From: Bacteroidota bacterium
GTDB lineage: Bacteria > Bacteroidota > Ignavibacteria > Ignavibacteriales > Melioribacteraceae
Assembly (NCBI GenBank): GCA_018818165.1
Contig: JAHISP010000035.1
Location: 1 to 64,000, forward strand
DNA length: 64,000 nt
Direction of reading: 5' to 3'
Each line of letters opens with the position of its first letter. Within the stretch, counting starts at the first letter, position 1. The position numbers were made by a program, and so were the translations under genes. This document shows positions 27,184 through 46,359 of this stretch, piece after piece. Below the pieces are notes generated by a model. The model saw nothing but the letters and a program-made list of their open reading frames with translations, had not been told where the DNA came from and did not search any database.

Positions 27184-30100
27184 TTATTTCATTAATATCA
27201 TTTTTTTAACCACATTAAATTCTTTTGAATCAGCAATTGATTCAGCTTGAATTCTATAAAGATAAACACCAGAAGCAAGATTGCTTGCATTCCAGTTAAC
27301 TGTATGAACTCCAGCATTTTTAGTATCATTAACTAAAGTTGTAACTACTTCACCAAGCGAGTTAAACACTTGAAGTTTTATTTTACTTGCAGAAGGTAAA
27401 GAGAAACTTATTTTTGTACTTGGATTAAATGGATTTGGATAGTTTTGACTCAATTCAAATTTAGATGGAATAACTATTTCATCATTTACACCAACAAATT
27501 GATCTTGAATTTTAATATTATCAACAGACCATCCCCAACCAGTTGTTAACTCATCGGCATGAAGTCTAAAACGAATTATTAAAACATCACCATCAGAAAA
27601 TTTGTCTAACAGATTTATGTTATGTGTTTTATACATAGCAGGGGTTCCCTTTTGGCTTCCTGAATAAGCTGTATTCCATTCGCTATATAATCTTGAATCG
27701 TAACCGTCTTCAAGTTGAATCCAATCACCACCATTAGTAGCTTCAACTATTACATAATCCCAAAATTCAGCATCACCATAAACTGTTCCTGCTTCACCTG
27801 GTTCAACAATTGCAATGTCGTCATAACTAAAAGTACCATCACTGCCATCAACAATTATTGGAACTCTTAAAATTGCAGAATAATCGGTTAAATTTGAATA
27901 TGGATGTGGTGAATTTAATGATCCATCTAAAAATCCACTTGCAGTATTTATAACTAAATCATTTAATATTAAATCACCACTATCTGTAGCAAAATTATTA
28001 ACGTAGCCCTTTGCTTGCGCCAAAAGTTCAAAGATTTCAACATTAGTTGAAGTAGATTTATATGCACGTGCGCCTTTTATTGAACTTAAATAAACTGCCG
28101 CAGTACCTGAAGTAGAAACTGGAACAACCAAAACTGTATCAACAATATTGTTAGATGTAATAGTTAGTACATTTTTTCCACCAACAATAACGTGTGTTGA
28201 ATCATAAACTGAACGCAAAGAAGCGTTAATAATTAAACCAGCTGCTCCAACGTTTGCTGAGTTAAGAACTGGAGAAAGTGTAACCATAGGTGGTTTATGA
28301 TTTGCTAATTCTGGTAACGAAACAGACCAAATTCCACGTCCGTGGGTTCCAACAACAACTTCGTCATCAACAATTCTCATTTCCCAAATTGAAACTTGAG
28401 GAAGTCCATTATTAGCAATATGCCATGTAGCTCCACCATCAATAGATTCAACAATACCAATATCAGTTCCAGCCCAAATAATATCTGTATTATAAGGCAT
28501 AACAGACACGCAGTAAACAGCAACATTTGGAAATCCATTTGTACTTACAGAACCTGAGCCAAAACCTGTAATTTCTGACCAATTTTGTCCGTAATTAGTT
28601 GTTCTAAATATTTTTCCATAACCAGAATATGAGAAAGTTACATAAGCAGTAGCTTCATCCGTTGGATGTGTATCTAATCCTGAAAACATTCCACCATCAA
28701 TAAGGTCATTGCCATTAACTTGTGAAAAAGATAATCCACCATCTTTGGACATAAAGAGACTACTAGAATATGCACCTGCCCAAACTACTTGAGGTTCGGC
28801 AATAGAAATTGCAACTTGTGCAAAGCTAAAATATCCTGCAGAAGCAAAAGCGGAAATTGGATAAAGTGTCCAACTAGTGCCAAAATTCTCACTCTTATAA
28901 ACACCTTCGGTTGTAATTGTATATAATAAATCTGGATCGCTATAAGATTTTGCAATTTTAGAAATAAATGGAGAAACTGCACTATTACCCCAACCGTTAA
29001 AACCAACATTTGCAGCAAAATATGATTGTCCACCATTTTCAGTTTTCCAGAATCTATTGAATTGAGAACCACCAATCATTTTTTGTCCATCGCCATAATG
29101 CCATGAAACTTCAAAACCATCGCCACCAATGCGGAAAATATAAGGTGTAGTTTTATTAGCATCAACATTTTTTGCTGATTCCCAAGTTCCATTATCTTGC
29201 ATACCCCCGATATATCTACTTCCACCAGGTTGCTTATCAACACCGTAGAACTGAGATGTATTATATCCATTTAATCCAACTTCTGTAAATGAAGCTCCAG
29301 CATCATAAGAAACAGCAATGCCACCATCATTTCCATTTAAGAAAATAAATTCTTTTGCAGCATTGTTTGTTGGAAATAAAGTAATATTATGATGATCCAC
29401 ATGTGTATAAGTATTTGTTGGATACTGACCATAACCATCAGTAATAGCAACAGTAGTTCTTGAAAGTGCTGGTAATTTACCAACTTCAACTACTAATTTA
29501 AAATCTGGAATATTTGCTGCATCCCAAGTTTTACCAACTGCCATTTTAAAAGCAACAACATAGCTGTTTTCAAATTTAAGACCTAAATCTTTTGCAATAT
29601 CAGAAGAAGGATTTGCAGCATCATAATCAACATTATTTACAAATATTATGTCTCCTCGAGAAGCTCCCAAATTAAATACACTGTTTGCATAAACATCTGT
29701 AAACGAACACATTAATTGTTTATTATTTGTAATATCCCAAACTTCAAAAGGAACATCTACATAATTTTTATATTGATTTGTATTATTAGAGAATAAATGA
29801 GCTTTTTGAGTCTTTCCAGGCCCAAATTTGATTTCAATATTTGTCAAACCTGAATTTAACAAAACATCTTCGCCCCAAAAATCATTTCCAGTTCCTAAAC
29901 CACCATTTCTTTCTGGTAAGGCTTTTGGAGTATAAGCAAATAATGTGTCTAAATTAGTATCAGTAATATTTGTAATTCCAAATACTGAATCAGACTCAAT
30001 ATTAGCTTGCCATAAATCAATACCACCCATATAAACTATATTTTCGTCAAATGGATTTACACCAATTGTATTATCATACCAACCTTGTTCACCCAACCAA

Positions 30101-31209
30101 GCTTTATCAGAACCATCATTTTCTGGAACTTCAATCCAAGTATTACCACCATCAAAAGTTGCAAACATTGAATTTGGGGCAGAATTTACAGATGCATAAA
30201 GTCTGTTAGTATCTGTAAGAGCTGCGGCTATTTCAATTCTTCCACCACCAAATTTGGCTTTTTCGGGTAAATTCCAAGTAGTTCCAGCATCAAGCGAGCG
30301 AATAACACCTTGAGATGTTGGGGCAAAAAGTGTACTAAAGTTTTTAGGATTAGCTCTTAAATCTTGCGCTTGGCCAGAGTAAACTTTATTCCAAGAGGCA
30401 CCACCGTCTAAAGTTTTAAATATCCCAGATTTAGTGGCTGCCACAACAACATTTTCGTTATTTGGGTCAATTGCTAATCTATTAACAAAAGAAAAATCTG
30501 AATTTAAAACAGTTGAAGCTAACTGAGTCCAAGTGGCACCTTTATCGATAGTTTTCATAATTCCGTTACCTTCAATAGCATCAGCATTATTAAAACCTTC
30601 ACCGGTTCCAGCATATAATACATTATTATTTGATAGTGCCATTTCCAAACAAGTAACTGCTAAATTTGGCATATTATCTGTTAAAGGAATCCATGTAGTA
30701 CCAGCATCTGAAGTTTTCCAAACACCACCACCAACTGCGCCAGCAAACCATGTTTTATAATTTGCATCACTTGGGTCAACAACAAGAGCACGTGTTCTAC
30801 CACCAACATTAGCAGGACCTCTCTCAACCCAGTTTAATGTTTCCATTATTTGGTTATTTGTATTTTTGTTAAGTTTTAACTGTTCCTTAGCTTTTTTTAG
30901 TTCAATAAAGCGATAATTTCTTGCATAATCTGGTGCTTTTTTGCCAGGAGCAGTACGTATTTTTGCATGAATTTCATCAAATTTATCTGGAGAATCAAAT
31001 TTCATTTCTCCTTTTACTTTTTGTTTTTTCTGTGACCAGTTTTCTTTTGAAACTACTTTTGGGTCAGTGTTTTTCTTATTAAGAAAGCTTATCTGATTAG
31101 ATTTATTCACGTCAGAGTCATTTTCGGGCAACCAATTATTGGAAATTAATATTGTTGCTGTAACAATTACAATTGCCGAAACTAATATTTTAAATTTGTG
31201 AGTTTTCAA
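27184..31209 (-). CDS. Type IX secretion cargo, sortilin/BNR-like beta-propeller protein (paralog A)
   Basis: A 1341-residue exported protein. A hydrophobic N-terminal segment (residues 9-25) is followed by a basic linker. The motif WVERGPANVGGRTRAL begins a large sortilin/BNR-type propeller region with repeated WKT.DGG.TW blades (for example GGGVWKTSDAGTTW). Residues about 397-600 form an inserted domain absent from the smaller paralog at 35073. Residues about 1075-1235 look like a jelly-roll domain (ending SVDNIKIQ). The last ~95 residues are a type IX sorting domain (QNYPNPFNPSTKI). The start is TTG with a GGAGG site, overlapping the stop of the lipoprotein gene by 4 bases. Paralog B at 42334 has the same length and is roughly four-fifths identical by eye. 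Ligand unknown. Confidence 0.85.
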   Translation of the reverse strand: MKTHKFKILVSAIVIVTATILISNNWLPENDSDVNKSNQISFLNKKNTDPKVVSKENWSQKKQKVKGEMKFDSPDKFDEIHAKIRTAPGKKAPDYARNYRFIELKKAKEQLKLNKNTNNQIMETLNWVERGPANVGGRTRALVVDPSDANYKTWFAGAVGGGVWKTSDAGTTWIPLTDNMPNLAVTCLEMALSNNNVLYAGTGEGFNNADAIEGNGIMKTIDKGATWTQLASTVLNSDFSFVNRLAIDPNNENVVVAATKSGIFKTLDGGASWNKVYSGQAQDLRANPKNFSTLFAPTSQGVIRSLDAGTTWNLPEKAKFGGGRIEIAAALTDTNRLYASVNSAPNSMFATFDGGNTWIEVPENDGSDKAWLGEQGWYDNTIGVNPFDENIVYMGGIDLWQANIESDSVFGITNITDTNLDTLFAYTPKALPERNGGLGTGNDFWGEDVLLNSGLTNIEIKFGPGKTQKAHLFSNNTNQYKNYVDVPFEVWDITNNKQLMCSFTDVYANSVFNLGASRGDIIFVNNVDYDAANPSSDIAKDLGLKFENSYVVAFKMAVGKTWDAANIPDFKLVVEVGKLPALSRTTVAITDGYGQYPTNTYTHVDHHNITLFPTNNAAKEFIFLNGNDGGIAVSYDAGASFTEVGLNGYNTSQFYGVDKQPGGSRYIGGMQDNGTWESAKNVDANKTTPYIFRIGGDGFEVSWHYGDGQKMIGGSQFNRFWKTENGGQSYFAANVGFNGWGNSAVSPFISKIAKSYSDPDLLYTITTEGVYKSENFGTSWTLYPISAFASAGYFSFAQVAISIAEPQVVWAGAYSSSLFMSKDGGLSFSQVNGNDLIDGGMFSGLDTHPTDEATAYVTFSYSGYGKIFRTTNYGQNWSEITGFGSGSVSTNGFPNVAVYCVSVMPYNTDIIWAGTDIGIVESIDGGATWHIANNGLPQVSIWEMRIVDDEVVVGTHGRGIWSVSLPELANHKPPMVTLSPVLNSANVGAAGLIINASLRSVYDSTHVIVGGKNVLTITSNNIVDTVLVVPVSTSGTAAVYLSSIKGARAYKSTSTNVEIFELLAQAKGYVNNFATDSGDLILNDLVINTASGFLDGSLNSPHPYSNLTDYSAILRVPIIVDGSDGTFSYDDIAIVEPGEAGTVYGDAEFWDYVIVEATNGGDWIQLEDGYDSRLYSEWNTAYSGSQKGTPAMYKTHNINLLDKFSDGDVLIIRFRLHADELTTGWGWSVDNIKIQDQFVGVNDEIVIPSKFELSQNYPNPFNPSTKISFSLPSASKIKLQVFNSLGEVVTTLVNDTKNAGVHTVNWNASNLASGVYLYRIQAESIADSKEFNVVKKMILMK

Positions 31210-32638: not shown

Positions 32639-33529
32639 TTAGTTCTGTATTTCTTCGTATGTATTCCAATCCATATCTCTGCCCGGGAAAATCACTTTTG
32701 AGAAAGGCCATTCGTTTTTCATCCATTCTTTTACAGCATCGTATAATTCGGAATCATATCCCTTGTTAAAAGCATCAGTAGTAACCCAAAGGAATACTTG
32801 AGCCTCATACTCCTTTGCATGCATGGGAATTATATAAACACACCCAAGACATTCTTGCTCTTCGTGATTCATAACAGTGTAAGTAAATCCAACGCGTTTT
32901 TGAAATTCAGATTCGTGATTTTTTAGCGCCCTAAGATCATCTTCTATTGTAAGATCTTCCTGTGGCCAATTATCGTCCGGTCCAAAAACACCTTTTAAAT
33001 GATCAATGCTGCTCATAACAGCTCGATAATCAAGTTCCACATCGGATGAACGTAACGGTCGCAGCAGCATTTGCTTTGTCATAAGTTTTTCGGGAACGTT
33101 GAAATTTTCAGGCACAAAAGTAAGCAGGTCTAAAAACTGTTTTGATAATTTATGCTCCGGATTAATCTCAAGGCATCTATTAAAATTATTTATGCATTCT
33201 TTTCGATTGAACTCGTAATAATAAAATTGTCCAAGTACTGAATAAATTTCAATTCTATCCGGGAATAGAGGTTTTACGCTTTCTACCAATTCAATTGCGA
33301 ATGGGCGATCTCCCGTATTAAATTTATCAGAGGCTAATCCAAAAATTGAATTTAATATTGCTTTCGTTGAATCTGGATATTTTTCGTGATAAGAATTAAT
33401 GACTTCGACAATTTCATCAATATTTTTAACGGCTGTTATTTTTTCAGTTATTTGTTTTTCTAACTGTTGCGCATTGATTGAAAGTATAGCGCTTATGAAA
33501 AAAATAAATATTTCAAGTCGTTTTATCAT
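32639..33529 (-). CDS. Exported TPR and GNAT-like acetyltransferase fusion
   Basis: A 296-residue protein with an unusual combination. Residues 1-20 form a signal peptide ending ILSINA. Residues about 68-130 contain a TPR-like helical pair (YSVLGQFYYYEFNRKECINN followed by FNRCLEINPEHK). From about residue 154 the sequence follows a GNAT family whose members read LRPLR.SDVE.DY.AVMSS: here LLRPLRSSDVELDYRAVMSS, then FTYTVMNHEEQECLGCVYI and a closing WPFSKVIFPGRDMDW. GNAT enzymes use cytosolic acetyl-CoA, so an exported one is odd; the domain may have become a binding module, or the signal may be a membrane anchor. It lies 63 bases downstream of the serine hydrolase gene. Confidence 0.7.
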   Translation of the reverse strand: MIKRLEIFIFFISAILSINAQQLEKQITEKITAVKNIDEIVEVINSYHEKYPDSTKAILNSIFGLASDKFNTGDRPFAIELVESVKPLFPDRIEIYSVLGQFYYYEFNRKECINNFNRCLEINPEHKLSKQFLDLLTFVPENFNVPEKLMTKQMLLRPLRSSDVELDYRAVMSSIDHLKGVFGPDDNWPQEDLTIEDDLRALKNHESEFQKRVGFTYTVMNHEEQECLGCVYIIPMHAKEYEAQVFLWVTTDAFNKGYDSELYDAVKEWMKNEWPFSKVIFPGRDMDWNTYEEIQN

Positions 33530-35072: not shown

Positions 35073-37745
35073 TTAACGAACGAGAAGCATTTTTTTTGTT
35101 TGAATCATATCATCTTTTGATAACTTATAAAAGTATACTCCGCTCGCCAACTGTGATGCATCAAAACTTACGTTGTGTTCTCCCGCCGGCATATATTCGT
35201 TTACTAAAGTTTTGACAGTTCTTCCTAAACCATCATATACTGTTAGCAATACATGCCCGTCTTCAGGAATGGAAAACGAAATACTTGTTGAGGGATTAAA
35301 CGGATTTGGATAATTTTGATATAGAATAAATTTTTCGGGCTGAATTAATTTTTCAGGCACTTCAGTGGGAGCGTTGTTAATACTATAAACTCCATTTCCG
35401 TGTGTGGCAACAGCAACTTCTCCATCAATGTTTCGAGTTGCGATCATTTCAACAATTACATTTCCGATTGTTTCCGAACCTTCTTGAATCCATATTGTAT
35501 TTCTTCCAGCAAGGGCTGTAGTTGAATATAAACCGGTGCTGGTTCCGGCAAAATAAGTATAACTTTCATTTTGTACCAAAGTTTCAATCCATCGAACTGA
35601 AGGACCTGCTCCACTGCCATCCGATTTCTCTTCTAAATTACCTGAGATATCTTCCCAGCTCTCACCTCCATCTGTTGAATAATAGATACTTGGAATTCCA
35701 TAGTTACCAAAGCATAACAGCACTTTATCAGCGTCGTTAGGATCAACATCAATTGAACGAGTAAAAGGCTGATATTGAAGTCCTAAATTCTTCCCTATAT
35801 TGGTAACTGTTGGGGAATTGGTGTTCGCATTTTCAATTTTAAAAATTTCTCCTATCTCCGTTCCTACATATAAAATATTAGCCGGTTTTCGGGATACAGC
35901 CAAGCATGAGATTTTTGAACCTACTTCAACGAATTTTGTCCAATATTTATTTTTTTCAGTATTACTACCATCAATGGGAATTAGACTTATATTGTCACAT
36001 CTTAGTATTTCTTTACCACCTGCCATATATATTAAATTATCATTATTCATATCGGCTATAAAAGGATTAAAAGGTTGGGGGTCGGAAAGAGACGGATTTA
36101 CTTTAGTTAAGGCGTAAGAAATAGTTCCATCCACGCTTATATTAGATATCGCAGTTTCACCGAACTGGAATGATGTCATCAATTTTTTCCCACTGTTAAC
36201 AAATTCGTTAAAACTTCCATCGCCCCAAAGTGCAAGTTTCCAACTTGCTTTTGAATCGTTATTATGAATATAATAGCTCCCGTTGTCCTGTAATCCGCCG
36301 ACTATCTTATAATCTCCAGTTTCCCTCGGAATAGCAATAGTATAAAACTGAGTTGTATTGTAGCCATTATCTAAAGATTTCCATCTCATGTTTGATGGTT
36401 TTGTAATATCATCGGCTCTTCTCAAACCTCCGTCGTTTGCTGAAAATGCAATTTTGGGATTTTCATAAGAAAAAATAAGCAGGTGATTATCAACATGGTT
36501 TTCCTGATTTAAGTTTTGTGGGCCGTTAACCATAACAGTTTCCGATCTATTTAAAAAACCATTAGTAGATCTGTATAACAGGGTGCCTCCGACAAATACC
36601 ATATTTTCATCTTCCGGGTAAACAGCAAGCACTAAAGAATAGGAATTAAAAGACTTGAACAGATTTTTGACATTTGAAGAACGGTTCTCCCAAATACAAT
36701 TTTCTTTACTACTGTCGTTTGATACATGAGTATATTTCCAAAAGCCCTGCACGCTGCCAAGAAATGTTGTGTTCTCCTCGGATAAAAAGTATACGATATT
36801 CTCATTTGAAGGCGCTACAGCTAATATAATTCTCTGATGATTATTAGCAAAATTAGTCGGAGTTATTTTTTCCCAAACTACTCCGTCTTCAGATCTCCAT
36901 ATTCCTCTTTTGTTGCCGTTACTCATTGTAGCATATACAACGCCTGTTGAGGTTACAGCCACTTCCGAATACACTACACTGTTATTCTGATCTCCCAAAA
37001 CATTAGTCCACACGGAACCTCCGTCGGTACTCCGAAAAATAATTCCATAAGCTGCAGCGTAAATTTCATCTTGCTCTAAATTGCTACGGTCAATTGCCAT
37101 ACTATTAATATATGAAAAGTAAGGGCTTACGTTTCTACCATACCTGTATGAAGTGGATTTCAACAAAATCCAGCTCTCACCATTATCAGTTGATTTAAAT
37201 ATTCCTACTCCACTCAACCATCCAATCCCGTTACTCTCGCCGGTTCCATAGTACCATGTATCTTCTTTTCCTGGACGAATATCTTGAATTAGGTATGAGA
37301 CACTATGCATATCTTTCGGATGGGTAGTAGTATACCAGCTTTCACCGCCGTCAATTGATTTCCAAATACCGCCAGTTACACCGCCGGCTATAAGAATTTT
37401 TGGATTCCTAATATCAATTCCAAGCGCTCTAGTTCTTCCGCCCACATTATATGGGCCTCTATTTATCCATTCTCTTGAGGAAGAGATTTTGTTTAAAGAA
37501 GATTTTTGAACTTTATCAGCAAACTCCAATTCTCTAGCCCGAATGTTATCCGGAATTTTTCCTGTTAAAGGGTTTCTAAGTGTTTTCAGTAAATATTGTT
37601 TTTTAACCCCCGGATTTTGTAAACCCAGCGCTTCTGGAAATTCCGTGTTTGCCTGATCACTGGATATATTAATGCTTAAAAGAAAAACAATAAATGAAAT
37701 AATTGCTCCTGATAAAAGGATAATAGTTTTGTTAAGGTTCTTCAT
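35073..37745 (-). CDS. Type IX secretion cargo, sortilin/BNR-like beta-propeller protein (short paralog)
   Basis: An 890-residue exported protein of the same family as the two 1341-residue proteins in this window. A signal peptide or anchor lies near residues 7-25. The shared motif WINRGPYNVGGRTRAL opens the propeller, which has BNR-type blades such as GGIWKSIDGGESW and IFRSTDGGSVW, and the conserved NGYNTTQFY plus GGLQDNGSY pair. It lacks both the ~200-residue insertion and the jelly-roll region of the long paralogs. The C-terminal ~85 residues are a type IX sorting domain (QNYPNPFNPSTSI). It lies 15 bases after the PfpI-propeller gene, so the two probably form one transcript. Likely surface-bound or released; ligand unknown. 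Confidence 0.85.
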   Translation of the reverse strand: MKNLNKTIILLSGAIISFIVFLLSINISSDQANTEFPEALGLQNPGVKKQYLLKTLRNPLTGKIPDNIRARELEFADKVQKSSLNKISSSREWINRGPYNVGGRTRALGIDIRNPKILIAGGVTGGIWKSIDGGESWYTTTHPKDMHSVSYLIQDIRPGKEDTWYYGTGESNGIGWLSGVGIFKSTDNGESWILLKSTSYRYGRNVSPYFSYINSMAIDRSNLEQDEIYAAAYGIIFRSTDGGSVWTNVLGDQNNSVVYSEVAVTSTGVVYATMSNGNKRGIWRSEDGVVWEKITPTNFANNHQRIILAVAPSNENIVYFLSEENTTFLGSVQGFWKYTHVSNDSSKENCIWENRSSNVKNLFKSFNSYSLVLAVYPEDENMVFVGGTLLYRSTNGFLNRSETVMVNGPQNLNQENHVDNHLLIFSYENPKIAFSANDGGLRRADDITKPSNMRWKSLDNGYNTTQFYTIAIPRETGDYKIVGGLQDNGSYYIHNNDSKASWKLALWGDGSFNEFVNSGKKLMTSFQFGETAISNISVDGTISYALTKVNPSLSDPQPFNPFIADMNNDNLIYMAGGKEILRCDNISLIPIDGSNTEKNKYWTKFVEVGSKISCLAVSRKPANILYVGTEIGEIFKIENANTNSPTVTNIGKNLGLQYQPFTRSIDVDPNDADKVLLCFGNYGIPSIYYSTDGGESWEDISGNLEEKSDGSGAGPSVRWIETLVQNESYTYFAGTSTGLYSTTALAGRNTIWIQEGSETIGNVIVEMIATRNIDGEVAVATHGNGVYSINNAPTEVPEKLIQPEKFILYQNYPNPFNPSTSISFSIPEDGHVLLTVYDGLGRTVKTLVNEYMPAGEHNVSFDASQLASGVYFYKLSKDDMIQTKKMLLVR

Positions 37746-37760
37746 AAAGGTTATACCTAT

Positions 37761-39863
37761 TTACTTTACTAAAGTAAATTTTTTAGTATTCATAAAATCG
37801 TTAGTCGTAATTCTATAAAAATATACACCGCCTGTAAGATTTCCTGCATTAAATATTATTGAATGATTTCCCTGATTTAATTTTTCATTTAACAGCACTG
37901 TTACCTTTTGCCCTAATAAATTGAATATCGCCAGTTCTACATCCGATTGTTTGGGCAAATCAAATTCAATAGTAGTGCTTGGATTAAAGGGATTGGGATA
38001 ATTCTGCATTAATTCAAATTTCGGTTCAATGTTTTCCAGTTTGGAGATACTTGTTAAAATTTGCCCAATCGGAATTTTTAAAAACAGAATATCAAATGCA
38101 CCGGTGCCACTGGAATTTGTGTGTCCTGTTATAACTACAAATTTTTTATCGTTAGTCAAAATACCTTCCGAAGCCCATTCGGATTTGGTGTCTTTAACAA
38201 TCTGCTTCTTAATTACATTCCCCAATCCGTTAATACCCAACACATAAATATTATTATTAGTAGATGCGGATTTCGTTGTACCACAAACAATATAATTTTC
38301 ATCATCCCGTTTTAAAACCGAAGCACCGTAATCATAATAAGTACCTTCTCCAAATCGCTTGTTCCATCTCATCGTTTCGCCGGGCATTGTTTTCATTGCA
38401 TATACATCATATAAATTCTGGCTGGTTATATCAGCGTCACCAACAATCATGTAATTCCCTTCATCGGCGGGGCATATTGAATTTCCCCAATTTTGATATG
38501 AAGATTCACCATAATTTTTCGTGAAATTACAATTACCTGCAACATCCATTTCAAATAGATATACATCGCGGTTGCCCCACCCCTGCGAATCAAATACTCC
38601 TGTTGATCCGACAATTAAAAATTTTCCATCATCGGTTTCAATAATATCTTTTGCAAATTGAGATTTATCATCACCCTTTGTTTTTGTCCAAAGTGTATCG
38701 CCGTTCGAATCGGTATAAATAAGGTAAACATCATCCTGTCCATTCCCGAATGATTCGGTATAACCTGCAATTAAATAATTCCCTATCGAAGTTTCAATAA
38801 TTTTATTAGCTTGTTCCGAACCTGAACCGCCGTAATTTTTCTGCCAAATTTTGTTCCCATCTGCATCTGTTTTTATCAGATAAACATCTTCATCACCTGC
38901 ACCGAAAGATGAGGTAAAACCTGCAATAACAAAACTACCATCGGCACATTCTGCAATAGAGTTTGCATAATCGTTGCCGCCTCCTCCAAAGGTTTTTGTC
39001 CACAATTGATTTCCCTCTGCATCGGTTTTAATTATTAGAACATCTGCATTCCCTTCTCCCTGCGAAAAAGTATACCCAGCAATTACAAATTCACCATCCT
39101 TTGTTTCACAGATTGTTCGTCCGCCATCGGAATTAATTCCACCATAGGTTCTTGAAATTACATCATCGTTTAGGGATAGGGTCTTACTTCCTATTTCTAC
39201 ATTATCAATCCTCTTGTTCTTATTCTGCCTATCAACGGCTTTTGCAATAGCATTACAATTTTGAAGATTGAAATAATCACCTGCAGCAGTAGTAACAATA
39301 TTTCCGTCAATAACCGGGTAGTGATTTTTTCCAACAAATTTTGCTCCAGCAGCAGTATACTCGTTACTATACTTTGGATTACCCGTAACATTTTTGCCGT
39401 TTATCACTCCGGCAGCAGCTAAAACACGAACACCAGTGCAAGTTGCAGCTACCACCAGTCCAGAGTCAACTGCTGTTTTAATTAAATCCATTGTACCATT
39501 ATTGTTTATTAAACTATTGCACGGTGGAGTGTTCGTCCATGAAGTAGCAGACATAACAACAACGCAATCATATTGTGTTATTCCTGTAACCTCGGAAATT
39601 AAAAGATCGGGTATTACAGCTGGGCAACCTAAAGGAGAGGCATATACGGGACATGCTTTAACTGTTCTTGTTAATCCAGCAATAGTTATATCCCATCCAA
39701 ATCTTTCGAAATTATCTATGTTCAAGTAATAATTTGCACCATATTGATCGGGTAGGATTATCAATACTTTAACTTGATTCTGCGAAAACAAATTTATAAA
39801 AGTGATGAATGTAATTGCCAAAATTGAAGTTGTTTTTTTAAAATAATTGAAGCGTGCTTCCAT
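37761..39863 (-). CDS. Type IX secretion cargo with DJ-1/PfpI domain and seven-blade propeller
   Basis: A 700-residue protein with a rare layout. A signal peptide (residues about 8-28) leads into a DJ-1/PfpI domain (about 30-215). Its nucleophile elbow reads VVAATCTGVRVLAAAGV, with the cysteine in the usual place, preceded by YDCVVVMSA. About seven ~50-residue repeats follow (225-600) with the pattern G....D.A.SI.ET.DG.F.IAG.T.S.G....DV.LIKTD..GN..W, consistent with a seven-bladed beta-propeller. The last ~85 residues are a type IX sorting domain (QNYPNPFNPSTTI). DJ-1/PfpI proteins are usually cytosolic proteases, chaperones or glyoxalases; an extracellular one joined to a propeller is not something I recognise as a described family. 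Confidence 0.82.
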   Translation of the reverse strand: MEARFNYFKKTTSILAITFITFINLFSQNQVKVLIILPDQYGANYYLNIDNFERFGWDITIAGLTRTVKACPVYASPLGCPAVIPDLLISEVTGITQYDCVVVMSATSWTNTPPCNSLINNNGTMDLIKTAVDSGLVVAATCTGVRVLAAAGVINGKNVTGNPKYSNEYTAAGAKFVGKNHYPVIDGNIVTTAAGDYFNLQNCNAIAKAVDRQNKNKRIDNVEIGSKTLSLNDDVISRTYGGINSDGGRTICETKDGEFVIAGYTFSQGEGNADVLIIKTDAEGNQLWTKTFGGGGNDYANSIAECADGSFVIAGFTSSFGAGDEDVYLIKTDADGNKIWQKNYGGSGSEQANKIIETSIGNYLIAGYTESFGNGQDDVYLIYTDSNGDTLWTKTKGDDKSQFAKDIIETDDGKFLIVGSTGVFDSQGWGNRDVYLFEMDVAGNCNFTKNYGESSYQNWGNSICPADEGNYMIVGDADITSQNLYDVYAMKTMPGETMRWNKRFGEGTYYDYGASVLKRDDENYIVCGTTKSASTNNNIYVLGINGLGNVIKKQIVKDTKSEWASEGILTNDKKFVVITGHTNSSGTGAFDILFLKIPIGQILTSISKLENIEPKFELMQNYPNPFNPSTTIEFDLPKQSDVELAIFNLLGQKVTVLLNEKLNQGNHSIIFNAGNLTGGVYFYRITTNDFMNTKKFTLVK

Positions 39864-40090: not shown

Positions 40091-40813
40091 TTATTTCATT
40101 TTCTCTTTCAGCTTTAAGGCGAATCTTCTGCTCATAATCAATGGTTTTGGTTCATCCTTTAGAAATATTTGGAATGAAGAATTAAACCAATCATCAACTC
40201 TATCTACATATTCAATATTAATAATAGTATTGCGATGTATGCGTACAAATTGATTATCAGGCAAACGTTCTTCCCACTCCTTCATAGTTTTAAGAACTAA
40301 TCCTTTTATATTTTTTGAACAAACTAATTCCGAATAATTACCAGCGGAGGATATTTTTATGATTGTACTAATCTTAACGAAATGAAATGAATTATTTATC
40401 ATGATAAAAATATTATCATCTGTATTAAACTTTTTATCCAATTTGTAAAGCTTAATTGCATCCTCGTTTAATCTCTCGATGGCAAGTTCAAGCCGCTTAT
40501 GGGTTACGGGTTTTAATAAATAATCCTGTGCATTAATTTCAAATGCTTTTATTGCGTATTCGTCAAATGCAGTTACAAAGATTACTTTAATTTTCTTATC
40601 GATAGAACGCAAGAGCTCAAATCCCGATTTTACAGGCATTTGAATATCGAGAAATAATAAATCAGTATCAATTTTTTTCAATAACATTTCAGCTTCTTCA
40701 ACCGAAGATGCCTCCCCGATTATTTCAATCTCGTTAAATTCTTCGAGCATTGCTTTTAAATCTTCACGCGCAAGTTTTTCATCATCAACAATAAATGCCG
40801 AATATTTCTTCAT
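40091..40813 (-). CDS. LytTR-family response regulator
   Basis: Cytosolic transcription regulator of the LytR/AlgR type. The receiver domain (1-115) has the acidic pocket FIVDDEKLARED, the phospho-acceptor aspartate in LLFLDIQMP (near residue 56), the threonine in VFVTAFDEYA and the lysine in DYLLKPV. The C-terminal LytTR DNA-binding domain (about 135-240) ends with the family pattern QFVRIHRNTIINIEYVDRV. Its start overlaps the stop of the histidine kinase gene by 4 bases. It is immediately upstream, in the same orientation, of the PfpI-propeller and sortilin-type cargo genes, so it is the obvious candidate regulator for them. This link is inferred from position. Confidence 0.92.
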   Translation of the reverse strand: MKKYSAFIVDDEKLAREDLKAMLEEFNEIEIIGEASSVEEAEMLLKKIDTDLLFLDIQMPVKSGFELLRSIDKKIKVIFVTAFDEYAIKAFEINAQDYLLKPVTHKRLELAIERLNEDAIKLYKLDKKFNTDDNIFIMINNSFHFVKISTIIKISSAGNYSELVCSKNIKGLVLKTMKEWEERLPDNQFVRIHRNTIINIEYVDRVDDWFNSSFQIFLKDEPKPLIMSRRFALKLKEKMK

Positions 40814-41907
40814 GATAACTCCATATCAATTTCAAGAATTGCTTTAACAAAACCGTTTTCTTCAAATATGTCAAATTTGTGCCTATCAGGATAAATAATT
40901 GCGAGTCGATTGCGAATATTATCCAAACCGGTTTTTGTGCCAATATCACTTAATTCCATGTTCGGTTCAAACCATTTGCCAGAATTTGAAATTGCTACTT
41001 TAAGTTTTTTATTTTCAACAACAGCTTCAATTTTTATTTGCAGCGGAATTTTGGATGTTTTCATTCCATATTTAATAGCATTTTCTATTAATGGATGAAT
41101 AATAAATGAGGGCACAGGAAAATCGTCTGCTGATGAATCAATGTTAAACTCGAATTCAATTTTATCATCAAACCTAATTTTTTCAATTTCGGCGTAATAC
41201 CGAATTGCTTCTACTTCATCGATAAGCGCAACTTGTGAACTGTTTTTTGTAATAAGGGAATAGCGATAAAACTCCGACAATTTGCTTACCATTTCAACAG
41301 CAGCTTTTTGATTACTACGGATAAGCGCTCTAAGTGAACTAAATGAATTAAACAGAAAATGTGGATTTACCTGATAACGGAGCATTTGCAATTGAGCACT
41401 TTGAGCAAGGAAATCAGCCTTTTGTGCCCGTTCTCTTTCGGCAGATATATCAAACCAAAACTTGATTCCAAAATATAGCATACTCCATGCCGTCATTATT
41501 GGAAAAAGCTGTGTCATTCTGAAAATGATACTTTTAATATTTAAAGCAGCTTTTAATCTCTCTTCGAAATGGTCCATTGGAAATGAGAAGTACACCAAAT
41601 GTGAAAGGAAATATAACATTGCTGCAGATAGGAATGAAAACACTAGAATAATTGCCAAGGTTTTTGATAGTGAAATCTTTTTCATATAAAGTTTTTTATA
41701 GAAAGCTCTCAATATAATTGTGGCAATAAAACCAGTACTCCATTGGAGTGAATTGTTTAAATAATAAAGGAAACTCCTGCTTACTCCTTCCATCCATATG
41801 GTGGTAATAAGTGAATCCATCGTTATAAACGAAATCCAACCAACAGCATTTACAACATAAAATGAAGGCAGCTCTCCGCTGAACAATATATCTTCAATTT
41901 TCTTCAT
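40810..41907 (-). CDS. LytS-type sensor histidine kinase
   Basis: Membrane sensor kinase partner of the LytTR regulator. Four hydrophobic segments lie within the first ~155 residues (about 15-35, 48-65, 80-105 and 130-150). A short coiled stretch (ISAERERAQKADFLAQSAQ) connects to the His_kinase domain with the acceptor histidine in YQVNPHFLFNSFSSLRAL (near residue 181). The ATPase domain shows PLIENAIKYGMK (N-box) and a G-box-like TGLDNIRNRL. No extracytoplasmic sensor domain is present, so the signal is probably sensed in or through the membrane. The 365-residue length is typical for Bacteroidetes LytS-like kinases. Confidence 0.92.
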   Translation of the reverse strand: MKKIEDILFSGELPSFYVVNAVGWISFITMDSLITTIWMEGVSRSFLYYLNNSLQWSTGFIATIILRAFYKKLYMKKISLSKTLAIILVFSFLSAAMLYFLSHLVYFSFPMDHFEERLKAALNIKSIIFRMTQLFPIMTAWSMLYFGIKFWFDISAERERAQKADFLAQSAQLQMLRYQVNPHFLFNSFSSLRALIRSNQKAAVEMVSKLSEFYRYSLITKNSSQVALIDEVEAIRYYAEIEKIRFDDKIEFEFNIDSSADDFPVPSFIIHPLIENAIKYGMKTSKIPLQIKIEAVVENKKLKVAISNSGKWFEPNMELSDIGTKTGLDNIRNRLAIIYPDRHKFDIFEENGFVKAILEIDMELS

Positions 41908-42333: not shown

Positions 42334-45300
42334 TTATTTCATAAGTATCATTTTTTTAACAACATTGAATTTCTTGGAATCAGATACAGATTCAGCTTGA
42401 ATTCTATAAAGGTAAACGCCAGAAGCAAGATTACTAGCATTCCAATCTACTGTATGAATTCCAGCATTTCTTGTTTCGTTAACTAAAGTTGAAATTACTT
42501 CGCCAAGAGTATTGAATACTTGTAGTTTTACTTTACTAGCAGATGGCAAAGAGAAACTAATTTTTGTACTTGGATTAAATGGATTTGGATAATTTTGACT
42601 TAAGTCAAAATTAGATGGAATTACTATTTCATCTTTTACACCAACAAACTGCTCTTGAATCTTTATATTATCAATTGACCATCCCCAACTAGTAGTAAAA
42701 TCATCAGCAAGAAATCTGAAACGAATTACTAGAACATCTCCATCAGAGAATTTATCTAATAGATTTATATTATGAGTTTTATACATAGCTGGAGTACCAT
42801 TTTGATTCCCAGCATAAGCAGTATTCCATTCACTATATAATCTTGAATCGTAACCATCTTCAAGAGCAATCCAATCACCACCATTAGTTGCCTCAACAAT
42901 TACGTAATCCCAGAATTTAGCATCACCGAAAACAGTTCCAGCATCACCTGGTTCAACTATTGCAATATCATCATAACTAAAAGAACCATCATTTCCATCA
43001 ACAATAATTGGAACTCTTAAAACAGCACTGTAATTGGTTTTATTCTCATAAGGATGTGGTGAATTTAAAGATCCATCCGAAAATCCAACAGCTGTATTTA
43101 TACTTAAACCATTAAGAATTACATCACCTTTATCAGAGGTGAAGTTATTCATATATCCTTTTTCAGAAGCTAATAATTCATAAACATCGATATTTGTTGT
43201 AGATGATTTATAGGCACGACTACCTATCATAGAGCTTAAATAAATATCTGCAGAACCAGATGAAGATACATGAACAATAAAAGTAGTATCAACAGCACTG
43301 TTTGCATTAATTGTCATTACATTTACACCATTTATCACAACATTAGTGTAATCATAAACAGAACGTAAAGAGGCATTAATAATTAAACCAGAGGCTCCAA
43401 CTTTTGCTGAATTAAGTACTGGTGCTAGTGTTGCCACTGGTGGTTTATGATTTGCCAATTCAGGTAATTTTACTGACCAAATACCTCGACCATGAGTTGC
43501 AACAACTACTTCATCGTCAACAACACGCATTTCCCAAATTGAAACTTGTGGAAGTCCATTCTTTGCTAAATGCCAGGAAACACCGCCATCAGTTGATTCA
43601 ACAATACCAATATCAGTTCCAACCCAGATAATATCAGTATTATAAGGCATAACTGATACACAAAAAGCAGCAACATTAGGAAAACCATTTGTGCTAGTTG
43701 AGCTAGTTGCATAACCAGAAAGATCTGTCCATGTTTGACCATAGTTTGTAGTTCTTAATACTTTTGGTAATCCAGAAGATGAAAAAGTTGCATAAGCAGT
43801 AGCCTCGTTAGTTGGATGTGTGTCTAGCCCAGAAAACAGTCCTGAATTGATTAGTCCATTATCCTCAGCTTTTGTAAAAGACAAACCACCATCTTTTGAT
43901 ACATAAAGCTCATCAGAATAAGCACCAGCCCAAACTACTTGAGGTTCGGCAATTGAAATTGTAACCTGTGCAAAACTAAAGTATCGTCCATCGCCAAAAC
44001 CTGATATAGGAATAAGTGACCAACTATCTCCAAAGTTCTCACTCTTATAAACACCTTCTGTAGTAATTGTATAAAGCAAATCGGGATCGCTATATGATTT
44101 TGCAATTTTAGAAACAAATGGTGAAACTGCACTATTACCCCACCCATTAAATCCAACATTTGAGGCACTATAAGTTTGCCACCCATCTTCTGTTTTGTAA
44201 AACTCATTATGTTGAGAACCACCAATCATTTTTTGCGCATCGCCATAATGCCATGAAACTTCATAACCATCTCCATCAATTCTGAAATCATAGTTAGTTG
44301 TTTTGTCTGCATCTACATTTTTTTCAGATTCCCAAGTTCCATTATCTTGCATACCCCCAAAATATTGACTACCACCTGGTTTTTTATCAACACCATAAAA
44401 TTGTGAAGTGTTATAACCATTATTGCCAACTTCAGTAAATGAAGCACCTGCATCATAAGAAACAGCAACTCCACCGTCATTTCCATTTAAGAAAATAAAT
44501 TCTTTTGCAGCCTTGTTAGTAGGGAACATTGTTATATTATGATGATCAACATGTGTGTAGGTATTAGTAGGATATCTGCCGTATCCATCTGTAATAGCAA
44601 CGGAAGAACGATTTAATGAAGGAAATTCGTCAACTTCGATACTCAACTGAACATCTGGTAAATTATTAGCATTCCAAGATTTACCCACTGCCATCTTAAA
44701 AGCAATTACAAAACTATTCTCGAATTTTAATCCATTACTCTTTGCAATATCACTAGAAGGATTAGATGCATTATACTCAATGTTGTTAACAAATATCACA
44801 TCTCCTCGAGAAGCTCCCAAATTAAAGACACTGTTTGCATAAACATCTGTAAACGAACACATTAATTGTTTGTTATTTTTAGTATCCCAAACTTCGAATG
44901 GAACATCAACATAATTTTTGTAAAGATATGTACTATTTGAAAATAAATGTGCCTTTTGAGTTTTACTAGATCCAAATCTAATTTCAATATTGGCTAATTG
45001 TGTATTTACTAAAACTTCTTCACCCCAAAAATCTTTACCTGTTCCTAAACCGCCATTCCTCTCAGGCAAAGCTGAAGGGGTATACGAAAATATTGTATCT
45101 AAATTATTATCAGTAATATTTGAAATTCCAATTATAGAAGCGGTAGATATATCTGCTTGCCATAAATCAGTACCTCCCATGTAAACAATATTTTCATCAA
45201 ATGGATTAACACCTATTGTATTGTTATACCAACCCTGAGGACCTATCCAAGTTTTATTAGAGCCATCCTTTTCTTTAACTTCACCCCAAGTAGTTCCCCC

Positions 45301-46359
45301 ATCAAAAGTTGAAAACATTTTATTTGGTGAAGAATCAACAGAAGCATAAAGTCTGTTAGTATCGCTAAGAGCTGCAGCAATTTCAATTCTACCACCACCA
45401 AATTTTGCTTTTTCTGGTAGATTCCACGAATTACCAGCATTGTGGGAGCGCATAACCCCTTGAGAAATAGGTGCAAAAAGTGTATTAAAATTTTCTGGGT
45501 TTGCTCTCAAATCTTGGACTTCGCCATTATAAACTTTGCTCCAAGTTAACCCACCATCAATTGTTTTAAATATTCCATTATTAGTTGCTGCAATAACAAT
45601 ATTTTCGTTACTTGGATCAATTGCTAATCTATTAACATAAGCATAATCAGGGTTTGTAGCTGTTATTGCTAACTGATTCCATGTTGCACCGTTGTCAATT
45701 GATTTGAATATGCCATCACCTTGAATAGCATCAGCATTACCAAAGCCTTCTCCGGTACCAGCGTATAAAATATTGATATTTGATTTTGCTATTTCCAAAC
45801 AAGTAACTGCCAAATTTGGTAAGTCGTCAGTTAATGGAACCCAACTTGAACCCGCATCTGTAGTTTTCCAAACACCACCACCAACAGCTCCAGCAAACCA
45901 TGTTTTGTATGTTGCGTCACTAGGATCAACAACTAAAGCTCTTGTTCTACCGCCAACATTAGATGGACCTCTCTCAACCCAATTTAATGTTTCCATAATT
46001 TGATTGCCATTATTCTTATTAAGTTTTAATTGAGCTTTCGCTTTCTTAAGTTCAATAAAACGATAATTTCTCTCATAATCAGGAGCTTTTTTACCTGGAG
46101 CAGTTCTCAATCTTGTGAGAATTTCAGTGAATTTTTCAGGAGAATCTGATTTAGAAGTGCCTTTAACTCTTCGTTTTTTTTGTGACTTATTTTCGCTGAC
46201 AATAGCTTTTCCATTAGTGTTTTTTACTTTAAGAAAGCTGAGTTTCCTAGATTTATGGACAATAGAGTTATTTTCAGATAATTGATTATTAGCAACAAAC
46301 AAAGTTGCTACTGCAATAATGATAACCGAAATTATTATTCTAATTTTATGAGCTTTCAA
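42334..46359 (-). CDS. Type IX secretion cargo, sortilin/BNR-like beta-propeller protein (paralog B)
   Basis: The second 1341-residue member of the pair, collinear with the protein at 27184-31209 over its entire length without visible gaps. It has the same N-terminal hydrophobic segment, WVERGPSNVGGRTRAL, BNR blades (GGGVWKTTDAGSSW), inserted domain, jelly-roll-like region (SIDNIKIQ) and sorting domain QNYPNPFNPSTKI. It also keeps the TTG start and GGAGGAG ribosome-binding site. Differences are scattered and mostly conservative, which suggests that both copies are kept under selection. The inserted domain and blade loops seem to differ more than the conserved blade cores, but I could not measure this. 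The lipoprotein gene that precedes copy A survives here only as a relic. Confidence 0.85.
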   Translation of the reverse strand: MKAHKIRIIISVIIIAVATLFVANNQLSENNSIVHKSRKLSFLKVKNTNGKAIVSENKSQKKRRVKGTSKSDSPEKFTEILTRLRTAPGKKAPDYERNYRFIELKKAKAQLKLNKNNGNQIMETLNWVERGPSNVGGRTRALVVDPSDATYKTWFAGAVGGGVWKTTDAGSSWVPLTDDLPNLAVTCLEIAKSNINILYAGTGEGFGNADAIQGDGIFKSIDNGATWNQLAITATNPDYAYVNRLAIDPSNENIVIAATNNGIFKTIDGGLTWSKVYNGEVQDLRANPENFNTLFAPISQGVMRSHNAGNSWNLPEKAKFGGGRIEIAAALSDTNRLYASVDSSPNKMFSTFDGGTTWGEVKEKDGSNKTWIGPQGWYNNTIGVNPFDENIVYMGGTDLWQADISTASIIGISNITDNNLDTIFSYTPSALPERNGGLGTGKDFWGEEVLVNTQLANIEIRFGSSKTQKAHLFSNSTYLYKNYVDVPFEVWDTKNNKQLMCSFTDVYANSVFNLGASRGDVIFVNNIEYNASNPSSDIAKSNGLKFENSFVIAFKMAVGKSWNANNLPDVQLSIEVDEFPSLNRSSVAITDGYGRYPTNTYTHVDHHNITMFPTNKAAKEFIFLNGNDGGVAVSYDAGASFTEVGNNGYNTSQFYGVDKKPGGSQYFGGMQDNGTWESEKNVDADKTTNYDFRIDGDGYEVSWHYGDAQKMIGGSQHNEFYKTEDGWQTYSASNVGFNGWGNSAVSPFVSKIAKSYSDPDLLYTITTEGVYKSENFGDSWSLIPISGFGDGRYFSFAQVTISIAEPQVVWAGAYSDELYVSKDGGLSFTKAEDNGLINSGLFSGLDTHPTNEATAYATFSSSGLPKVLRTTNYGQTWTDLSGYATSSTSTNGFPNVAAFCVSVMPYNTDIIWVGTDIGIVESTDGGVSWHLAKNGLPQVSIWEMRVVDDEVVVATHGRGIWSVKLPELANHKPPVATLAPVLNSAKVGASGLIINASLRSVYDYTNVVINGVNVMTINANSAVDTTFIVHVSSSGSADIYLSSMIGSRAYKSSTTNIDVYELLASEKGYMNNFTSDKGDVILNGLSINTAVGFSDGSLNSPHPYENKTNYSAVLRVPIIVDGNDGSFSYDDIAIVEPGDAGTVFGDAKFWDYVIVEATNGGDWIALEDGYDSRLYSEWNTAYAGNQNGTPAMYKTHNINLLDKFSDGDVLVIRFRFLADDFTTSWGWSIDNIKIQEQFVGVKDEIVIPSNFDLSQNYPNPFNPSTKISFSLPSASKVKLQVFNTLGEVISTLVNETRNAGIHTVDWNASNLASGVYLYRIQAESVSDSKKFNVVKKMILMK

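Follow-up and report, generated by a model that had tools for sequence, protein, structure and literature searches.

An open reading frame at 37761..39863 on the minus strand of the window (the 64,000-nt stretch of contig JAHISP010000035.1 analysed here) encodes a 700-residue protein that appears to be exported and to carry a rare variant of the domain of DJ-1, the Parkinson's protein, rather than an ordinary DJ-1 enzyme. The reading frame has an ATG start. We consider the chance about even that the whole explanation proposed here is correct, namely that the protein is exported and that its noncanonical DJ-1-like module is based on Cys142, probably under two-component control.

The first 28 residues (39780..39863, minus strand) form a hydrophobic, signal-peptide-like stretch, in which the best 12-residue Kyte-Doolittle mean was 2.34. 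The DJ-1/PfpI-like domain occupies residues about 30-213 (39225..39776, minus strand), as placed by Pfam, AF2 and the Foldseek and VIA comparisons. The DJ-1_PfpI model PF01965 matched residues 32-196 with an E value of 2.8e-18 and 66.7 bits (cut-off, 26.6). Residues 622-696 (37776..38000, minus strand) were assigned to a type IX secretion sorting domain by both Por_Secre_tail PF18962 (E 6.9e-11, Pfam) and TIGR04183 (E 8.1e-11, NCBIfam). The protein therefore resembles type IX secretion substrates (PF18962/TIGR04183) in its sorting tail and signal-like N-terminus, whereas its DJ-1-like cargo domain is unusual among them. The original prediction of a signal peptide, a DJ-1/PfpI domain, about seven repeats of about 50 residues and a sorting tail agrees with the Pfam, NCBIfam and repeat analyses, the signal being judged by hydropathy. 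In a search of the source genome, 152 matches to the protein were reported (150 of 210 candidates were scored), and nearly all among those listed were to the sorting tail.

The structure of residues 28-220 was predicted by AF2 with a pLDDT of 80.4 and a pTM of 0.84. Fragments of three viral-contig DJ-1 proteins were added as input rows (A13). Only the part from about strand 3 on was given, because a MAFFT alignment of the target with canonical DJ-1 proteins misplaces the N-terminal third. We compared this model with PDB libraries. The best Foldseek match was 6q3t (E 9.6e-13), and the 50 matches listed were DJ-1/ThiJ/PfpI proteins by title save SAV1875 and YhbO, which we take to belong to the same group. 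With VIA-align, the best match was the ThiJ/PfpI protein 4hcj (Z 23.0, rmsd 2.3, 168 residues aligned), and human DJ-1 gave a Z of about 20. A sequence profile matched Arabidopsis DJ-1D with E 1.8e-22. A chance match was considered for the DJ-1 call and rejected, since Pfam, the PDB profile and the predicted fold concur. The DJ-1 fold had been staked beforehand on a structure prediction, and the predicted structure has that fold. Among sequence-profile and fold matches, the best were the Arabidopsis DJ-1D-like and PfpI/YhbO branches of the DJ-1/PfpI superfamily (PDB 4ofw, 1g2i, 4hcj). The target has the same fold, domain extent and cysteine elbow as these branches. However, it differs from them by the signal-like N-terminus and the fusion to repeats and a sorting tail, and it is without the catalytic Glu, the Gly-Gly pair and the Cys-His.

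The source genome (4.88 Mb, 105 contigs) contains two PF01965 matches, the target and a paralog, both of which are fusions with a signal-like N-terminus. The paralog (L003 4832-7852; 1006 aa) shares 41% identity with target residues 9-541 and combines DJ-1 and the repeats with a PKD match under cut-off, a Laminin_G_3 domain and a sorting tail. A more divergent relative, G042, comes from another genus of the family (L051 7165-9222; 685 aa) and has a DJ-1 domain followed by FG-GAP repeats; no sorting tail was found in this protein. By BLASTP, G042 shares 29% identity with the target over residues 15-219 and nothing notable beyond; the identity over the DJ-1 domain is about 30% (29-32%). A signal-like N-terminus is common to all three proteins, as judged by hydropathy. 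Thus, the architecture as a one-off was rejected, and the search for the same architecture that had been proposed returned DJ-1, repeats and a sorting tail in the paralog and DJ-1 with FG-GAP in G042. PF01965 at 1e-6 gave no match in four other genomes of the same genus (G001-G004).

Profile hits and a single phmmer query in other genomes of the phylum and in viral contigs supplied 43 canonical DJ-1/PfpI proteins; this set includes near-copies, above all five of the viral-contig proteins. Thirty-five of the 43 were placed in a tree with the three secreted domains, and the other eight were left out because they were truncated or shorter than 165 aa. The three secreted domains fell on one side of a branch with a support of 100/99, and their long branches were flagged. 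The three putatively secreted DJ-1-like proteins form a small but real group. The clade is joined to two repeat families, CylK/SBBP-type in the target and paralog and FG-GAP in G042.

Several observations were made beside these relatives. In the G042 genome, the DJ-1/FG-GAP gene is followed by a small cytochrome c554-like gene with a 4-base overlap (L051:7165-9737), which hints at a redox setting for this relative. An unfused DJ-1/PfpI protein of the same phylum (L078:1024-1848) has a signal-like N-terminus and keeps the Glu, the Gly-Gly and the Cys-His; it looks like an ordinary DJ-1 that is exported. The premise that DJ-1/PfpI proteins are normally intracellular therefore has an exception, one with its motifs intact. 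Three DJ-1/PfpI genes without a 5' end (L090, L091 and L095) lie beside an open reading frame that by eye resembles a phage-type integrase, a layout that would fit an element inserting at the beginning of DJ-1 genes.

The elbow cysteine of AATCTGV (residues 139-145), Cys142 (39438..39440, minus strand), is invariant in the target, the paralog and G042, as is the surrounding pattern A-x-C-x-G-V-x-V-L-A (3/3 secreted members). In the AF2 model, Cys142 (model residue 115) opens the helix 115-123 after the strand 110-114. The cysteine thus occupies the nucleophile elbow of the model, as the first helix residue after the strand, and the claim made for AATCTGV was correct in this respect.

The other catalytic landmarks of the family were compared with the canonical set. 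Of the 43 canonical rows, all 36 that have a letter at the position of the Glu after strand 1 carry this residue (the other 7 are gapped); the elbow Cys occurs in 42 of 43, and a His directly follows the Cys position in 36. At the Gly-Gly pair, all 43 rows have the first Gly and 42 the second. The stretch of the canonical catalytic Glu reads PDQYGANYYLNI in the target (residues 38-49; 39717..39752, minus strand) and is without Glu. Because the N-terminal columns align poorly with canonical proteins, we based the absence of Glu on the stretch between D39 and D50 itself. Residues 40-49 of the target are free of Glu and Asp, as is the corresponding segment of the paralog. The G042 segment likewise contains no Glu, but an Asp aligns there with residue 49, directly before D50, which is invariant in the three proteins. 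D50 or another acid could act as a stand-in for Glu, and the loop of the target model that would carry the Glu is of low confidence (block mean pLDDT 59). Where canonical proteins have the PGG oxyanion segment, the target has VMSATSW (residues 103-109; 39537..39557, minus strand). The Gly-Gly columns are Ser-Ala in the target, Pro-Ala in the paralog and Pro-Gly in G042; thus, G042 retains one Gly. The residue after the elbow Cys is Thr in the target, and the two relatives have Cys-Ala and Cys-Arg. The hydrolysis of cPGA by human DJ-1 and YajL is lost with G74S and lowered with G75S, and Glu18 counts among the essential residues of human DJ-1 (from an excerpt of PMC12135873). Since the Glu, Gly-Gly and His are missing and the Gly substitutions have these effects, the familiar DJ-1/PfpI activities are unlikely, and the target is unlikely to be a conventional glyoxalase, deglycase or PfpI protease. 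The protease and glyoxalase activities proposed earlier are therefore unsupported, and only the Cys of the Cys/Glu/His set, whose geometry was to be checked, is present in the target.

The repeat domain spans residues 243-609 (38037..39137, minus strand) and consists of seven repeats of about 52 residues of the CylK/SBBP type, with lengths in order of 52, 52, 52, 57, 52, 52 and 50 aa. These are presumed to form a seven-bladed beta-propeller. The units were cut at a core pattern picked by eye, and the end of the last unit was set by hand. All blade-pair scores together summed to 1170, whereas 200 shuffles averaged -152 (sd 43) and reached at most -23; the choice of phase raises this score, yet by less than the observed margin. 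The NCBIfam model of SBBP beta-propeller lipoproteins matched residues 269-508 with E 3.1e-11. These residues are of the same repeat type as the SBBP-repeat propeller lipoproteins (NF047494, LipL53 family), but the score of 42.6 bits is far under the model cut-off of 400. Against the PDB, the repeats matched CylK with E 6e-15 as a single sequence and with 1.2e-27 as a target-paralog profile. CylK is a cyanobacterial alkylating enzyme (PDB 7fh6, 7ron), in which the same repeat type lies C-terminal of another N-terminal domain. According to an excerpt of PMC8916777, the C-terminal domain of CylK is a solved seven-bladed propeller and its N-terminal domain is a Ca-binding fold, whereas that of the target is DJ-1-like. 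The blades of the target align in several registers with CylK, whose propeller holds the catalytic Tyr473. A CylK-like alkylation by the target was rejected as unsupported, the N-terminal domains being different. A single-sequence AF2 model of residues 28-610 was poor (pLDDT 43.4), and the propeller is therefore argued from sequence comparison.

We searched for further fusions in sets of genomes that overlap with one another; in each genome, the candidates from a loose first look were scored. With target residues 1-603 as the query at 1e-20, 12 of 79 family genomes matched, and the 11 others than the source matched from query residue 206 on, that is, in the repeats only. The domain profile A2 found the source genome only, both in 395 phylum genomes (1e-18) and in 391 class genomes (1e-11). 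At 1e-9 in the 79 family genomes G042 was added, and at 1e-8 in 164 order genomes the source, G042 and 8 further loci with open frames of 173-213 aa were found. The three-row profile A3 gave 20 further matches in 345 phylum genomes at 1e-11 (frames of 198-291 aa), G042 and 13 further in 160 order genomes at 1e-10 (193-244 aa), and 14 further in 207 class genomes at 1e-10 (173-220 aa). No further fusion occurs among the matches listed in these profile searches (at most 395 genomes each), whose other frames are of single-domain size. The fusions are thus placed at three loci in two genomes. In a PF01965 census, 135 of 164 order genomes matched, and one frame among the matches listed was of 441 aa (G741); this census goes down to the target's own score and so could miss weaker fused members.

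Scans of genome contigs with the single domain and with a two-row alignment gave 25 and 28 pattern stretches, and tblastn found no relative among them. Viral contigs searched with A2, the propeller, L062 and A10 gave none. By tblastn against plasmids, 27 records matched; in none of them did a single place reach 80% query coverage, and in the ten records listed the matches start at query residue 187 or later, past the DJ-1 domain. Neither a DJ-1/PfpI-propeller fusion nor a type IX tail on a DJ-1 protein is named in the titles and abstract starts of the open-licence PMC papers listed in our literature searches. In the excerpts of the type IX secretion papers, PfpI is mentioned once each, in a gene or protein table, and no listed paper combines PfpI with type IX secretion within a single protein. 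Thus, the fold, the repeat type and the secretion tail are known, and their combination is rare and without description in the open-licence PMC literature searched.

The next gene upstream of the target encodes a LytTR-type response regulator (40091..40813, minus strand; PF00072 and PF04397), and it overlaps by 4 bases with a gene for a PF06580 histidine kinase (40810..41907, minus strand). The same arrangement, a same-strand PF06580 kinase followed by a LytTR regulator, is found directly upstream of the paralog (L003 2821-4654). Ten kinase matches were obtained in the source genome, and the four strongest are kinase/LytTR pairs. These four pairs are about equally diverged, with identities of 39-45% for the kinase and 42-52% for the regulator. 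No DJ-1 gene was found beside the other two pairs (8-kb stretches), and no kinase/LytTR pair was found beside the G042 gene in 16 kb; the regulatory link therefore rests on two loci in one genome. By eye, no convincing shared site was seen in the two regulator-to-gene spacers.

On the other side of the target, 15 bases downstream, lies a gene for a VPS10/sortilin-like protein of 890 aa with a T9SS tail (35073..37745, minus strand), which is possibly co-transcribed with the target. It is followed by a gene for a beta-lactamase-family serine hydrolase. Both genes are absent from the paralog locus. Elsewhere in the window, two 1341-aa repeat proteins (27184-31209 and 42334-46359, both minus strand) are 77% identical without gaps and represent a duplication; the T9SS tail was recognised by Pfam in 42334-46359 and by alignment in 27184-31209. 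The chain encoded at 32639-33529 (minus strand) combines a GNAT acetyltransferase match over cut-off with a TPR match below cut-off.

In the explanation that we prefer, a signal peptide would carry the target over the inner membrane and the type IX system over the outer one, with retention at the surface or release. Through its propeller, the target may dock to a partner, whether protein, glycan or matrix. The DJ-1-like module would act via Cys142, either binding a small electrophilic or thiol ligand covalently or acting on it as a catalyst, in an active site remodelled to do without three features of DJ-1/PfpI enzymes: the Glu, the Gly-Gly oxyanion hole and the Cys-His dyad. The chances for and against such a cysteine-dependent, non-canonical role of the module appear to us nearly balanced. 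In favor of the preferred explanation as a whole, the sequence matches and the predicted fold both point to the DJ-1 family, all three members begin with a signal-like stretch, Cys142 is kept in the three members although G042 is so distant from the target, the canonical catalytic features are lost in all three save for the one Gly in G042, and the three predicted secreted domains group together in the tree, the flagged long branches being kept in mind. In addition, the kinase-LytTR pair stands directly upstream of both genes in the source genome, and the same clade appears joined to two different repeat families. Against it, the conservation of Cys142 is that of three sequences, the model is of low confidence in the loop that would carry the Glu, for which D50 could stand in, the regulatory link comes from one genome, and export is predicted.

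The main rival is that the DJ-1-like module is catalytically dead and serves in ligand binding or structure only, Cys142 being a leftover. The loss of the Glu, the His and the intact Gly-Gly pair in 3/3 members is as expected from such a module. Repeat-rich secreted proteins are often adhesins or scaffolds, and the source genome has about 150 other sorting-tail proteins. However, a dead site is expected to drift, and the invariance of Cys142 and of A-x-C-x-G-V-x-V-L-A across three long-branched members counts against this reading, although three members are few. We give it an appreciable, minority chance.

A second alternative is that Cys142 forms a reversible disulfide with Cys71 (39651..39653, minus strand), so that the module works as an extracellular redox switch. 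Among the remaining cysteines, Cys71 alone is aligned across the three secreted members. It follows strand 2, at what we take to be roughly the position of Cys46 in human DJ-1. In an excerpt of PMC9583617, Cys46 is described as one of the redox-sensitive cysteines of human DJ-1. However, the model is of low confidence around Cys71 (block mean pLDDT 52), and we regard this switch as doubtful. We consider it very unlikely that the protein is a functional enzyme of the DJ-1/PfpI type relocated outside the cell, be it a glyoxalase, a deglycase, a cPGA hydrolase or a protease: the fold and the elbow cysteine are present, the genome has no PF01965 match besides the target and its paralog, and D50 could act for the Glu, but none of the near-universal Glu, Gly-Gly and His of the canonical set is found in the target, and the Gly-Gly substitutions impair cPGA hydrolysis by DJ-1 (PMC12135873, excerpt).

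Beyond the preferred explanation, the three proteins might represent an extracellular DJ-1 branch in which a Cys-centred site, possibly a Cys71-Cys142 redox pair, replaces the Glu and Gly-Gly, which swaps propeller partners and which came under LytTR-type control in one lineage, and which would constitute a family of thiol sensors or enzymes. We consider this wider proposal rather unlikely; such a branch was not found described in the open-licence PMC literature searched. The occurrence of one clade on two repeat domains, together with the same regulator pair at two loci, suggests an extracellular function under selection. DJ-1 proteins have been studied mainly as intracellular redox or glyoxal enzymes, and the role of their reactive cysteine is debated. 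A clade that has the elbow cysteine and is without the Glu and the oxyanion glycines would be a natural test of the cysteine alone, in an extracellular setting.
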